Assembly: GCA_026914155.1 (NCBI GenBank)
Contig: JAPPGH010000024.1
Location: 62,001-126,000 of the forward strand
DNA length: 64,000 nucleotides
Direction of reading: 5' to 3'
Source of the DNA: Candidatus Palauibacter rhopaloidicola
GTDB lineage: Bacteria; Gemmatimonadota; Gemmatimonadetes; Palauibacterales; Palauibacteraceae
The notes under the pieces are model-generated. The model was not told where the DNA came from and ran no database searches. It saw nothing but the letters and a program-made list of their open reading frames with translations. Of this stretch, positions 28,338-35,159 are shown piece by piece. The translations under genes were made by a program, and so were the position numbers. Position 1 is the first letter of the stretch, and every line of letters starts with the position of its first letter.

Positions 28338-28411
28338 TGGGCCCGGCAGGATTCGAACCTGCGACCTTGGGATTATGAGTCCCCTGCTCTAACCGGCTGA
28401 GCTACGGGCCC
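28338..28411 (-). tRNA. tRNA with CAU anticodon (elongator Met or lysidine-modified Ile2)
   Basis: GGGCCCGTAGCTCAGCCGGTTAGAGCAGGGGACTCATAATCCCAAGGTCGCAGGTTCGAATCCTGCCGGGCCCA; full cloverleaf; CCA not encoded. Confidence 0.95.
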
Positions 28412-28507: not shown

Positions 28508-29569
28508 TCACGGCGCCACCTCGACCCCGACCGCCGGACCGTCCCGCTCGATGACCTCTCCGATCTCCGCGGCCGCATAGCCCGCCGCGGCGAGCGCGGA
28601 CGATGCGGCCGACGCCTCGTCGGCGGGGACGGCCGCCAGCAGTCCGCCGGACGTCTGCGGGTCGAGCAACAGAGTCCGCAGTTCGTGGGGGACGGCGTCG
28701 TCCCACCGCACCTGCGACGCGTAGGCGTCCCGGTTCCGGGTCGTACCGCCCGGCACGCACCCCTCTCCGGCGAGGCGCAGCGCTCCGGGCAGGAGCTGCG
28801 GCGCCGAAGCCCGAATCCGGGCGCTCGCGTCCGAGGCGTGGCACATCTCCAGCAGGTGCCCCAGGAGCCCGAAGCCGGTGACGTCGGTTGCGGCGTGAAC
28901 GTCGAAACCGGAGAGGACGGCCGCCGCCTCGCGGTTGAGTTGCTGCATGGAATCGACGGCGACGAGGAGGTCGGCCGGGTCCGTCACGCCGCGCTTGAGC
29001 CCGGTCGTGACGACACCCGTCCCGAGCGCCTTGCCCAGCACGAGCGCATCCCCCGGCCGCGCTCCGCCCTTTCTCCACAGGCGGTCGGGATCGCCGAGTC
29101 CGATGGCCACCAGTCCGAACTTCGGTTCCGCGTCGTCGATGGAATGTCCGCCGGCCACGGCGATGCCGGCCTCGCGGCACACCTCGCCCGCGCCGCGGAG
29201 GATCGCACCCACCGTCTCATCGGAGAGCGTCCCGGCGGGAACCGCCAGGATGTTGAGCGCGAACAGGGGGCGGGCCCGCATCGCGTACAGATCTCCGAGC
29301 GCGTTCGCGGCCGCGATGGCGCCGAAGTCCGCCGGATCGTCGACGAGCGGAGTGAAGAAGTCCAGGCTCGCGACGATGGCGTCCCCATCGTCGAGCAGGT
29401 ACACGGCGGCGTCGTCCGGGCCCTCGAGTCCCACGAGGAGCCGGTCGTCCGGAACGAGCGGAACGTGCTGCAGGATGCGGCCCAGATCCTCCGGGCCGAG
29501 CTTGCACGCTCAGCCGGCGCCGTGCGAGTACTGGGTCAGGCGGGCCGCTTCGGCCGAAGGCGAGTTCAT
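28508..29569 (-). CDS. selD: Selenide, water dikinase SelD; selenoprotein with Sec at codon 20 (in-frame UGA at 29510..29512)
   Basis: MNSPSAEAARLTQYSHGAG(U)ACKLGPEDLGRILQHVPLVPDDRLLVGLEGPDDAAVYLL... continuous with ORF 28508..29434; the UGA aligns with catalytic Cys17 of E. coli SelD (GAGCGCK). Confidence 0.93.
29478..29498 (-). promoter_or_regulatory. Putative bacterial SECIS hairpin in selD
   Basis: 11 nt after UGA: CGGCCC-GGAGGATCT-GGGCCG; perfect 6-bp stem, 9-nt loop beginning with GG. Confidence 0.75.
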
Positions 29570-29612: not shown

Positions 29613-30323
29613 CTACCAGTTCCGCTCCACGACGGGATCCTGGAAACGGTTGCGGCCCATCACGCGGTCGCGGATCGCCGCTTCCGCGTCGCCCGCCTGT
29701 TCGAGGAGCGCCGCCGCCTGCTCGGGCGACAGCATCTCCATCTCGCCCGAGCCCGCGGCCGCCGCGGCCCCGGCGCCGGCCCCCTGTGGCGACTGTCCCT
29801 GCCCGCCCTGCTGCTCGTCGCCGCCGCTCTCCCCTTCCTCCTCGAGCCAGCGCTCCACGAGTTCGAGGTTCCAGCGCGCATCCTCGTCGTCCACGCGGCG
29901 GCGGAGGACCTCGCGAAAGGCTTCGCGCGCCGCCTGGAGGGCGGCTCGACGCGCGGACGGGTCGCTCTGGGTGAACCGGCCGTCGAGGGCCGTGCTGAGC
30001 CCGAGGTTGTAGAAGGCGCTCTCGCGCACCTCTTCCCGCTCGCTGCCGATGGAGAGTTCGAGCGGGGCCTGCGCGTCCCCCACCTGCCCGTCGTGGAGGA
30101 GAGCCGTCCCGTAGTTGTAGTGGTCGATCGGCCGGTCCGAGGAAGTGGCTCGTTCCCGGTAGCGCGCGACGGTCTCGGATTCGGACGCCTGCGGGTCGGC
30201 GGACCCGGGCTGACCCGCCGCCCGCGTCGGCGCATCCTGCGGCCCCTCCCCGGCAAACGCCGCGAGCGAGGCGGCCGCGGCCGCGAGCCCGAAGATCATG
30301 CACCTCCGCGTCGACTCAACCAC
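29613..30323 (-). CDS. TPR-like BatC-type protein
   Basis: Signal peptide, HYNYGTALLHDGQVGDAQAPLELS repeats, last gene of the Bat cluster. Confidence 0.7.
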   Translation of the reverse strand: MVESTRRCMIFGLAAAAASLAAFAGEGPQDAPTRAAGQPGSADPQASESETVARYRERATSSDRPIDHYNYGTALLHDGQVGDAQAPLELSIGSEREEVRESAFYNLGLSTALDGRFTQSDPSARRAALQAAREAFREVLRRRVDDEDARWNLELVERWLEEEGESGGDEQQGGQGQSPQGAGAGAAAAAGSGEMEMLSPEQAAALLEQAGDAEAAIRDRVMGRNRFQDPVVERNW

Positions 30324-31305
30324 GTGGCAACAGGAACCCTTCTCCCCAAAGGCTGACGAAGGCGAGCAGAAGCAACGCCGCCACGGCCACGTCGTCGGTC
30401 GAGGTCAGGGGTTCGCGGTCGCCCTGCGCCAGTTCCCGCTCGATCGCGTCGGTACCGTCCGAACCGTCAACATAGCGCCCGCCGGTGCCGAGAGACATCT
30501 GCCTCAGCGACGCGGCGTTCAACCGCGTGATGACGGGGCTGCCGTCCGGCCCCTGAAGCACTGAAGCTCCGCCCCGCCGCCGCGCGGCCATCGTCGGGTC
30601 CAGCGACGCCTCCCGGGTCAGGGGGATCTGTCCACCGAGTTCGGTTCCGATCCCCACCGAATGGATGACGATCCCCGCATCCCGAGCCCTTCCGATCGCC
30701 TCCCCGAAGGGCGCGCCCGCGGTTTCCTCGCCATCGGAGAAGACGACGATCGACTTGCGCGCACCCTCCTCCCCGCCGGCGAGGAGGTCGATGGCCTGGG
30801 TGAGGCCGGAGGCGAGCGAGGATCCGCCCAGGCCGACCGCGGCGGGCCGCACGCCCTCCGCCAGCATCTCGATCGCGCTCACGTCGGTCGTCAGCGGCGA
30901 GAGCACGTACGCGCGGCCCGCGAAGTAGACGACGCCCATCCGGCCCTGCGTGCGCGTCGCGAGGCGAGCGGCCAACTGCCGCTGCGCCTCGAGCCGGCTC
31001 GGCTCGACGTCACCCGCCAGCATCGAGTTCGACGCGTCCAGCACCAGGATCGTTTCCGCCCCTCCTTCATCGAGGCGCCGGGCCTCCGTGCCGCCCGACC
31101 CGGAGGCGAGCGCGATCGCGACGACGCCCGCGGCGAGCAGCGCCAGGCGAACGGGGGGAAGAGCGTGCGCCGGCAGCCGCACGTAGCGCTCGAGCAACGA
31201 GGTCTCGGCGAGCTTCTCGCGGTCCGCGCCCGACCGTCGCGACGCGAGCAGCCTGAGCCCTACGGCCACGGCTCCGAGCAGGAGGGCGATCGGGAGCGGG
31301 GCCAC
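30316..31305 (-). CDS. VWA-domain protein (BatB-like)
   Basis: ETILVLDASNSMLAGDVEPSRLEAQRQ (MIDAS DxSxS), TM segments. Confidence 0.88.
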   Translation of the reverse strand: MAPLPIALLLGAVAVGLRLLASRRSGADREKLAETSLLERYVRLPAHALPPVRLALLAAGVVAIALASGSGGTEARRLDEGGAETILVLDASNSMLAGDVEPSRLEAQRQLAARLATRTQGRMGVVYFAGRAYVLSPLTTDVSAIEMLAEGVRPAAVGLGGSSLASGLTQAIDLLAGGEEGARKSIVVFSDGEETAGAPFGEAIGRARDAGIVIHSVGIGTELGGQIPLTREASLDPTMAARRRGGASVLQGPDGSPVITRLNAASLRQMSLGTGGRYVDGSDGTDAIERELAQGDREPLTSTDDVAVAALLLLAFVSLWGEGFLLPRG

Positions 31306-31307
31306 GG

Positions 31308-32300
31308 TCAGACCCAGACCCGGCGGGAACGCGTCGCCGCCACGAGGAGTTCGAGCAGGACGAGCGCGAGCGCCGCGATGAGAAGTTCCCGCCGCATCCC
31401 GACCCGCTCTTCCGTCCGCACTTCCTTGATCGGCGTGGTCTCGAGTTCGTTGATCCGTTCGTAGATCCGCGTCAGTCCCTCGGGGTCGGTGGCCCGGAAG
31501 TAGAGCCCCCCCGTGCGGGTCGCCATGCGATCGAGGAGTTCGTCGTTCACGTGGACGCGGATATTGGCGTACTGGTATCCGAACGCGGTCCGGGCTACGG
31601 GCACGGGGGCGACCCCGTCGCGGCCGACGCCGATCGTGTAGACGCGGATACCGAGGGAGGCGGCCGCGGCCGTCGCCTCCTCGGGCGAGATGCCGCCGCT
31701 GTTGTTGTCTCCGTCGGTGAGCAGGACGACGATGCGGGATTCGGGCTCCAGATCGCGAAGCCGGTTCGCCGCCGTGGCCAGCGCAACACCGATGGCCGTC
31801 CCATCCCGGAGCTGTCCGGCTTCGAGGCGCTCCACGGCAGTCTCCACCACCGCGTGGTCCAGCGTCCCGGGGACCATCGTGAGGGCCTCTCCCGCGAAGG
31901 CGACGAGACCGATCCAGTCCGACTCCCGTCCCTCCACGAAGCGGATGACCTCCCGCTTGGCAACCTCGATGCGGTTATCCGGCCGAAAGTCCTCCGCCAG
32001 CATCGAACTCGAGATGTCGACCGCCAGCATGATCGCCACCCCCTCGCGCTCCGACTCGACGCGCTCCCATACCCGCACGGGGTTGACGAGGGTGATGATG
32101 ACGAGCGCGAGGGCGAGGGAGCGGAGGGCGGCCGGGAACCACCACCAGAATCGCCCCCGGCCCCGGCCGCGGGAGCCGGCGAGGCGGGCGATGTCCGGAT
32201 ACGGGAGACGGACCCTGCCCGAGCCCATCAGGGCCCAGCCGAGCGGCAGCAGCGCCAGAAGGAGGAGGAACGGCCAGCCGGGGAGCGCGAATTCGCTCAT
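31308..32300 (-). CDS. VWA-domain protein (BatA-like)
   Basis: IMLAVDISSSMLAEDFRPDNRIEVAK, VVLLTDGDNNSGG. Confidence 0.9.
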   Translation of the reverse strand: MSEFALPGWPFLLLLALLPLGWALMGSGRVRLPYPDIARLAGSRGRGRGRFWWWFPAALRSLALALVIITLVNPVRVWERVESEREGVAIMLAVDISSSMLAEDFRPDNRIEVAKREVIRFVEGRESDWIGLVAFAGEALTMVPGTLDHAVVETAVERLEAGQLRDGTAIGVALATAANRLRDLEPESRIVVLLTDGDNNSGGISPEEATAAAASLGIRVYTIGVGRDGVAPVPVARTAFGYQYANIRVHVNDELLDRMATRTGGLYFRATDPEGLTRIYERINELETTPIKEVRTEERVGMRRELLIAALALVLLELLVAATRSRRVWV

Positions 32301-33211
32301 GCGCCGGACTCATCGGCCGGAGGCGACTCCGCCGCGTCCGCGGTGTCCGCCGTGTCCGCCATGTCCGCGCGCACGAACGCCTCGCCGACGTCCACGTCGC
32401 CAAGCGGACCTTCCCACTCCGTCCGCAGGCGCGCGAAACGGGCCAGAATCGAGTGGCGCAGCGCGGTGACGAGCCCCGCGTCCGCGTCGCCGAGCCCGAG
32501 CAGCTCCCTCGACGGCGCCCACCCGCGCGTCACATGCGCGTAGCGCCGAAGCGTCTCCTCGTAGCCGTCGTAGAACCGCTCGCCGCTCACCTGCTGCCGG
32601 ATCCATCCCTCGCGGAGCCGCGCGAGGTCGCGAAGCGCGAGGTCGCCGGGGCCTAGGGGGCCTTCGTCGGCGGTCGCGACGCCGCGGCCGCGGCCCCAGG
32701 TCAACCAGGCGAGTCCGGCGAGCGCCGCGGCGATCAGGATCAGCCACCAGGGCAGCCCCCCCAGACTCAGAAGAGGCCGGGCATCCCTCAACTCGAGCGC
32801 ATCATCCGCCGCCGGCAGCACGCTGAGGACGGGGACCGCGGGCGGCTGCAGCCGACGGACGACGCCACCCGCGGCCGCGAGTTCCACCTCCACCGGCGGG
32901 ATGACGAGCGTATCCGCGCGCCACGCCCGCATCGTGTACTCCGCTTCCCAGCGCCGACCCTCTTCGACGGACCGGATCTGCGCGGGCTTCGTCTGCTCGA
33001 TCGACTCCGGCCCGTCGATGAGCGCGGGAAAGCGGACCTCTCCGGCTCGCTCCTGTCCGACGACGAGGCGGACCGTGAACTCCTCCCCGACCCGCACGGA
33101 CTCCGGCAGAACCGTCGCCTCGAGGTCGACGGCGGACTGGGCCGCCAGCCCCGGGGCGAGGCCCAACCCCAGGCCGAGGACGACCCGGCCCACCCACCGG
33201 GATCTCTTCAC
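32297..33211 (-). CDS. BatD-like membrane protein
   Basis: Signal peptide, beta-rich N-domain, central TM, position in Bat cluster; (TAD)n C-terminal repeat. Confidence 0.65.
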   Translation of the reverse strand: MKRSRWVGRVVLGLGLGLAPGLAAQSAVDLEATVLPESVRVGEEFTVRLVVGQERAGEVRFPALIDGPESIEQTKPAQIRSVEEGRRWEAEYTMRAWRADTLVIPPVEVELAAAGGVVRRLQPPAVPVLSVLPAADDALELRDARPLLSLGGLPWWLILIAAALAGLAWLTWGRGRGVATADEGPLGPGDLALRDLARLREGWIRQQVSGERFYDGYEETLRRYAHVTRGWAPSRELLGLGDADAGLVTALRHSILARFARLRTEWEGPLGDVDVGEAFVRADMADTADTADAAESPPADESGA

Positions 33212-34140
33212 CGGAGCCTCCGCCGGCCGCGAGCGGCGAAGAAGCCGGAGAGCCGTGACTCGTACGGGGTGTCAGTACGCAGCCGCATGAGGTCGACGTG
33301 GCAGTGCGCGCACAGCCGCTCCAGCGCCCGCGCTCCCGTGGTCGAGTGCTCCATGAGTCGCTCCCGAACCGCCGCATCGCCGAGGTCGACCACGGCCCGG
33401 TCGCCTGTTTCGGGGTCCACGACTTCCACCCAGCCCGATGAAGGGATCGTCGTTTCCGCAGGATCGTCGACCGCGAGCGCGACCACGTCGTGGCGGCCCG
33501 AGAGCCCCAGCAGCGGGCGGGCCAGGTTCCCGGCGCCCACGAAGTCCGAGATCACGAACACGAGAGAGCGGACGGTGAGCATGCGCGCCGCCGTGGCAAG
33601 CGCGAGATCGACGTCCGTCCCCTTCCCCTCCGGCCGGACGGACACCAGTTCATGAAGGAGGCGGAGGTTGCGATTGCGGCCCCGCGCCGGCCGCGCGTAG
33701 CGCTCGATCCGGTCGCTGAAGAGCAGCATGCCCACCGGATCTCCGGCGCGCATCGCCGCGAGTGCGAGGGTGCTCGCCACCTCCGCGACGAGATCGCGCT
33801 TCAGGGACCGGCGCGTACCGAAGTCGTTCGAGGCGGAGACGTCGACGACGAGGAGGACGGCAAGCTCCCGTTCCTCCACGAAGCGCTTCACGTACGGGCG
33901 CCGCATGCGGGCGGTCACCTTCCAGTCGATCGCCTGGAACGGGTCGCCCGGCTGGTATTCGCGGACCTCGGAGAACTCTATGCCATGTCCGCGGAAGAGC
34001 GACGGATAAGGCCCCAGAGCCGGGTTGTCCATGAACCGCCGGCTCTTCAACTCCAGGCGCCGGACCTCTCTCGCCGCGGCGGCGGAGTCGGCCGTCGGCG
34101 CCGGCCGTCGCGGGCGCCACAGGAAGTCGGGCAGCCTCAC
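33208..34140 (-). CDS. DUF58 domain protein
   Basis: GIEFSEVREYQPGDPFQAIDWKVTARMRRPYVKRFVEERELAVLLVVDVSAS. Confidence 0.92.
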   Translation of the reverse strand: MRLPDFLWRPRRPAPTADSAAAAREVRRLELKSRRFMDNPALGPYPSLFRGHGIEFSEVREYQPGDPFQAIDWKVTARMRRPYVKRFVEERELAVLLVVDVSASNDFGTRRSLKRDLVAEVASTLALAAMRAGDPVGMLLFSDRIERYARPARGRNRNLRLLHELVSVRPEGKGTDVDLALATAARMLTVRSLVFVISDFVGAGNLARPLLGLSGRHDVVALAVDDPAETTIPSSGWVEVVDPETGDRAVVDLGDAAVRERLMEHSTTGARALERLCAHCHVDLMRLRTDTPYESRLSGFFAARGRRRLR

Positions 34141-35159
34141 GGCACCGGCACGGTCTCCAGGAGATGGTCGAGGATGCGGTCGGCATCGATCTGTTCCGCC
34201 TGCGCCTGGAAGGTAAGGACGAGCCGATGCCGAAGGACATCGCGGGCGATCGCCTTCACATCCTCCGGAACCACGAAGGCGCGGCCCTCGATGAAGGCGT
34301 GCGCGCGGGCCGCTCTCGCGAGGAAGATCGTCGCGCGCGGCGAGGCCCCGAACTCGATCCAGTCCACGACTTCACCCAGGCCGTGGGCCGCGGGTTCACG
34401 CGTCGCGAGCACGAGCTGGAGGATGTAGTCTTCGAGCCGCCGGTCCACGTAGATCGCCGGAAGCATGGCGCGCGCCGCGAGGATGCGGTCCGGCTCCACG
34501 ACGGCCTCGATGGGGGGCGGATCCTCTCCCGCCATGAGCCGCATGATGGCCCTCTCCTCCTCGGGCGCGGGGTAGCCGACCCGGGTCTTGAACATGAACC
34601 GGTCCACCTGCGCCTCGGGAAGCGGGTACGTGCCCTCGTGCTCGATGGGATTCTGCGTGGCCATGACGAGGAACGGCACGGGGAGCGGGTGCGTCTCCTC
34701 TCCGATCGTCACCTGGCGCTCCTGCATCGCCTCGAGGAGGGCGGACTGGACCTTGGCGGGCGCGCGGTTGATCTCATCGGCGAGGACGATGTTCGCGAAG
34801 ATGGGCCCCCGCTTCGGAGTGAAGGTGCCCGTCTTCTCCTCCCACACCAGCGTTCCCACGACGTCGGCAGGCAGCAGATCCGGCGTGAACTGGATCCGCC
34901 GGAAGGTGGTGTGGATCGCCTCGGCGAGCGTGCTGACGGTGAGCGTCTTCGCGAGTCCCGGCACACCTTCCAGCAGAATATGGCCGCCCGTGAGGAGGCT
35001 CATCAGAACGCGGTCGAGGAGGGCGTGCTGTCCGACGATCCGTTTCGCCAGTTCGTTTCGGACCTCGGCCACGAAGGTCCCCGCCTCCCGGATCGCGGCC
35101 TGCTGGGTCTCGAGATCCTCCCCCGAGACCCGCTGGGCCGTCCCGGCTTCTCCGTTCAT
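34137..35159 (-). CDS. MoxR-family AAA ATPase
   Basis: GHILLEGVPGLAKTLTVSTLAEAI, VLADEINRAPAKVQSALLEAMQERQVTIG. Confidence 0.96.
   Translation of the reverse strand: MNGEAGTAQRVSGEDLETQQAAIREAGTFVAEVRNELAKRIVGQHALLDRVLMSLLTGGHILLEGVPGLAKTLTVSTLAEAIHTTFRRIQFTPDLLPADVVGTLVWEEKTGTFTPKRGPIFANIVLADEINRAPAKVQSALLEAMQERQVTIGEETHPLPVPFLVMATQNPIEHEGTYPLPEAQVDRFMFKTRVGYPAPEEERAIMRLMAGEDPPPIEAVVEPDRILAARAMLPAIYVDRRLEDYILQLVLATREPAAHGLGEVVDWIEFGASPRATIFLARAARAHAFIEGRAFVVPEDVKAIARDVLRHRLVLTFQAQAEQIDADRILDHLLETVPVP

Follow-up and report, generated by a model that had tools for sequence, protein, structure and literature searches.

The selD gene of the window, which is the whole 64,000-nucleotide stretch of DNA analysed here, contains a TGA codon within its reading frame and raises the question of whether this codon breaks the gene or is read as an amino acid, and as which one. 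The host is a marine bacterium of the genus Candidatus Palauibacter (Gemmatimonadota). The gene, its codon, a downstream hairpin, the decoding machinery, the conservation and a selenocysteine (Sec)/Cys alternation were all established in this analysis. On this sequence evidence, window selD almost certainly encodes a selenocysteine-containing selenophosphate synthetase, with the UGA read via SelB and the mRNA hairpin. The features of the locus are as follows.

28508..29569, minus strand: selD for selenophosphate synthetase (selenide, water dikinase); 353 codons followed by a stop, and a single in-frame TGA inside; from translation, profiles and structure alignment
29513..29569, minus strand: N-terminal 19 codons 5′ of the TGA, missed by open reading frame (ORF) callers; from variant comparison
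29510..29512, minus strand: TGA codon for residue 20, predicted to be read as selenocysteine; from the alignment with 3u0o, the TGA of relatives, and the presence of only TGC or TGT elsewhere
29478..29498, minus strand: SECIS-like hairpin with a 9-bp stem and a GGA apical loop; from folding, synonymous recoding and pairing within the genus

The selD reading frame and the selenium machinery of the genome

Read from 29569 to 28508 on the minus strand with TGA as U, the window encodes MNSPSAEAARLTQYSHGAG-U-ACKLGPEDLGRIL..., a protein of 353 residues, and translation closes at a second TGA, the real stop. NCBIfam profiles identify the product as SelD (TIGR00476 equivalog, 375.5 bits versus a cut-off of 125; PRK00943.1, 376.4 bits versus 299). 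Residues 7-350 align with the E. coli SelD structure 3u0o (E 3e-80, 273 bits), and homology to Aquifex aeolicus SelD (2yye, 2zod, 2zau) extends over most of the length (179 bits). ORF calling returns only 29434-28508, 308 residues starting from an internal GTG, exactly the loss of the N-terminus reported in the preliminary description; the 45 missing residues include the active-site loop. The upstream part, which that description called exon-like, belongs to the same continuous reading frame, and the term is a misnomer. Directly 3′ of selD lies a tRNA with a CAT anticodon (window 28338-28411, minus strand), and on the 5′ side same-strand genes at 29613-35159 resemble a BatA/BatB/BatD and MoxR-ATPase cluster, as read by eye from their translations.

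The TGA sits between GAG and ACK and aligns in 3u0o with Cys17 of E. coli SelD, in agreement with the earlier placement of the UGA exactly at this catalytic residue. In a set of 128 distinct selD sequences drawn from Gemmatimonadota and other phyla, 89 have TGA here, 37 TGC and two TGT (39 Cys in total), and none carries Ser, Thr or Ala, although the search pattern also permitted these residues. The Cys/Sec alternation that had been proposed as a check is thus seen, with nothing else at the site.

All three decoding components that the preliminary description expected are present in the same assembly: a tRNA-Sec with a TCA anticodon (C50:51608-51699; Rfam, 79.7 bits versus a cut-off of 47), SelB (C50:57051-58910, 369.7 bits) and SelA (C43:7667-8998, 500.7 bits), both proteins scoring over their cut-offs. 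A genome lacking selA, selB and selC had been named as a ground for abandoning selenocysteine, and this draft assembly is not of that kind. Together with selD they occupy separate contigs (selD on C7, selA on C43, selB and tRNA-Sec on C50) of a 4.1 Mb draft (63 contigs, 95.8% complete, 6.1% estimated contamination). SelB also occurs in the 13 other listed members of the genus. Of 301 Gemmatimonadota genomes, 230 have a SelD and 227 a SelB; three genomes (G161, G236 and G002) have a selD with TGA yet lack a SelB hit at the threshold applied, and since one of them, G002, is 99% complete (G236 is 83% complete), incompleteness does not wholly account for the missing matches.

In the established bacterial pathway, hairpin-bound SelB brings Sec-tRNA-Sec to the UGA. 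By analogy, selenocysteine would be inserted into window SelD, would serve in catalysis and would make the enzyme dependent on itself. SelB with GTP and Sec-tRNA-Sec, bound to the downstream hairpin, would meet the ribosome at UGA codon 20 and deliver selenocysteine in place of termination. Sec20, located in the flexible N-terminal selenide-handling loop, would then be the catalytic residue in the conversion of selenide and ATP to selenophosphate. This product would feed SelA, and because SelA consumes it in making Sec-tRNA-Sec, SelD would need its own product. The other client of the selenophosphate pathway identified in the genome would be a Sec-containing formate dehydrogenase.

This second selenoprotein is the formate dehydrogenase alpha subunit FdhA (G000:C57:93058-95061, L144), which scores above its family cut-off and contains a single in-frame TGA, within NCSRA-U-HAPTVAG. 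The TGA is followed by a hairpin with a GG-starting loop, the fold of which is unexceptional on its own (z -0.59). The gene is probably mis-called by ORF finding, and the earlier expectation of further mis-annotated selenoproteins holds for at least this one. Selenouridine synthase, considered as an extra selenophosphate user, was rejected, with no match above the cut-off in 35 family genomes. PMC1794560 describes SelD as the single selenoprotein in several YbbB-containing species, a precedent for a closed loop in which the Sec machinery serves only its own supplier enzyme. Such a loop is highly improbable here, as FdhA exceeds its cut-off with both an in-frame TGA and a GG-loop hairpin in this genome, and the selenouridine synthase result also stands against it; G042 and G205, which have no FdhA match at the cut-off, might be SelD-only cases.

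The SECIS-like hairpin downstream of the TGA

The window hairpin begins 11 nt after the TGA, and its GGA loop starts 20 nt after it. The best fold, CGGCCCGGA-GGA-TCTGGGCCG, has a free energy of -15.7 kcal/mol (z -3.97), and none of 200 shuffled sequences was equally stable. The 11-nt offset given in the preliminary description stands; the 6-bp stem with a 9-nt loop proposed there is replaced, being the outer part of the 9-bp stem with the GGA triloop. Published bSECIS criteria specify an apical loop of 3-9 nt, an upper stem of 4-16 bp, a G within the first two loop positions, a distance of 16-37 nt from the UGA and a minimum free energy of at most -7.5 kcal/mol (PMC13188914). With a 3-nt loop, a 9-bp stem, a 20-nt spacing and -15.7 kcal/mol, the hairpin lies within all of these limits. 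A search of the window against Rfam at gathering thresholds returned the tRNA only and no SECIS family match. The upper hairpin in the SECIS of E. coli fdhF shares with the window hairpin a start ~11 nt after the UGA and a small loop with a G near its start; its stem and loop sequences differ, with a GGU-type loop in place of GGA.

As high-G+C coding DNA readily forms hairpins, each gene was set against synonymous recodings that encode the same peptide. L019, whose 54-nt sequence is identical to that of the window, exceeds its recodings at p 0.007. The 35 distinct Sec selD genes have a mean hairpin score of 20.1 versus 11.4 after recoding, 69% of them individually at p<0.05, although these genes are kin and do not amount to 35 independent tests. 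The 32 Cys selD genes score 11.8 versus 11.5, none with p<0.05. The hairpin excess tracks TGA at the site, and Cys selD genes show none of it; the suggested likeness to a bacterial SECIS is borne out by the published criteria and by a hairpin in Sec genes beyond what codon choice accounts for.

Pairing within the genus group is complete in all cells, with one compensatory change from C-G to U-A and two pairs that vary on one side; covariation there is thin, a single double change that 47 of 500 shuffles equalled or exceeded. A distant group has five double-change cells, a value that none of 500 shuffles reached, and the group of sister genera yields no covariation because its stem never varies.

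These data also bear on whether a suppressor or reassigned tRNA might decode the UGA, inserting cysteine or tryptophan. Cysteine would be chemically acceptable, being the residue of other lineages at this site; such decoding is nevertheless very hard to reconcile with the dedicated tRNA-Sec, SelA and SelB, with the use of TGA as the stop of selD itself, and with a SECIS-like hairpin that is in excess only among TGA genes.

Conservation of the TGA and of the codons on both sides

All 14 genus genomes with a SelD match retain the TGA, as do every listed member of the family and order with a match over the site and most members of the class. Close relatives with TGC, or a TGA traceable to sequencing error, had been raised as grounds for doubt, and the 14 of 14 genus genomes with TGA speak against both. 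Some class members carry a selD with no internal stop and Cys at the site: L212 (in G239), L190, L202, L203 and L206 are of this Cys type. L212 retains a stretch, GAGCTGGCGCAGGTGCT, that resembles the Sec-type hairpin and is possibly a remnant of a recent Sec-to-Cys change.

The 25 loci compared carry 12 distinct versions of the 57-nt segment upstream of the TGA. Most departures from the window sequence are synonymous, with three synonymous and no nonsynonymous changes in many genus members and 11 synonymous and two nonsynonymous at the farthest locus, and the start position is ATG or GTG at all 25 loci. Since the changes are almost only synonymous and the start codon persists throughout, the segment appears to be translated in the selD frame; the variant comparison indicates that purifying selection acts on the 19 codons 5′ of the TGA. 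On the 3′ side, close genus members differ by about 34-58 synonymous versus 11-22 nonsynonymous codons. A pseudogene arising by nonsense mutation, or a sequencing or assembly error, with the 29434 ORF as a truncated remnant, would explain the interrupted frame and the shortened 308-residue call of ORF finders, but is vanishingly unlikely against a TGA shared, in independent assemblies, across the whole genus and by most class members, selection maintained on both of its sides, and its position exactly at the catalytic Cys.

SECIS-like designs across the phylum and relation to known selenoproteins

The SECIS-like design in selD varies within the phylum. One hairpin, its loop at +20, is present in the genus of the window; the sister genera have GGTCC-GGA-GGACC with the loop at +17. 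Most of the remaining class carries two tandem hairpins, CTCGG-N5-CCGAG followed by GNCGCAG-GTN-CTGCGNC, with the second loop at +33, 16 nt beyond the +17 of the sister genera.

+9 to +43 after the selD TGA: tandem hairpins in L119, L122-L126 and L145-L218 (other Gemmatimonadota)

The first hairpin occupies +9 to +23 after the UGA. In 61 distinct tandem-type sequences it scores 4.80 of 5 versus 3.63 after recoding (maximum 3.96 in 500 recodings), and the second scores 7.55 of 8 versus 5.60 (maximum 6.03); the sequences were chosen by the second hairpin, which makes the test fair for the first and upward-biased for the second. The leucine codon in the first hairpin is CTC in 61 of 61 sequences, although elsewhere in these genes CTG (115) and CTC (108) occur at similar rates. 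The second hairpin carries double changes.

Folding of the first hairpin takes out 15 nt, so that the second loop would lie effectively 18 nt from the UGA, near the +20 and +17 of the single-hairpin designs. From this we infer, tentatively, that the first hairpin may act as a spacer in a two-part SECIS, rebuilt with the protein unchanged, a reading to which we give somewhat less than even weight. A plain long-spacing SECIS with a separate constraint on the first segment is the rival reading, given that the published model permits 16-37 nt with no spacer. A literature search found no description of a two-stem-loop bacterial SECIS, which is weak evidence of absence.

Palauibacter and most sampled Gemmatimonadota having selD very probably make selenoproteins, and plain ORF calling in these genomes cuts off the N-terminus of SelD and splits fdhA. 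The phylum-wide selD set is a natural experiment in SECIS redesign under nearly constant protein sequence. A term search of two selenium surveys (PMC5029168, PMC13188914) found no mention of gemmatimonads, and no mention of selenium biology was found in the paper describing Palauibacterales (PMC10469786).

Sec-type selD is a known kind of gene, regularly truncated by ordinary gene finders, and is widespread here across the phylum. SelD belongs to the two most widespread selenoproteins of bacteria, and cases in which Cys has replaced its Sec have already been described (PMC1794560). The closest counterpart is the Sec-containing SelD family (PMC1794560; PMC13188914), which comprises the same enzyme with Sec at the same position in the N-terminal selenium-binding loop, an in-coding bSECIS-type hairpin 3′ of the UGA and, as here, alternation with Cys homologues. 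Window selD shows no functional difference from this family; what sets it apart is its lineage, Palauibacterales within Gemmatimonadota, unmentioned in the selenium surveys searched.
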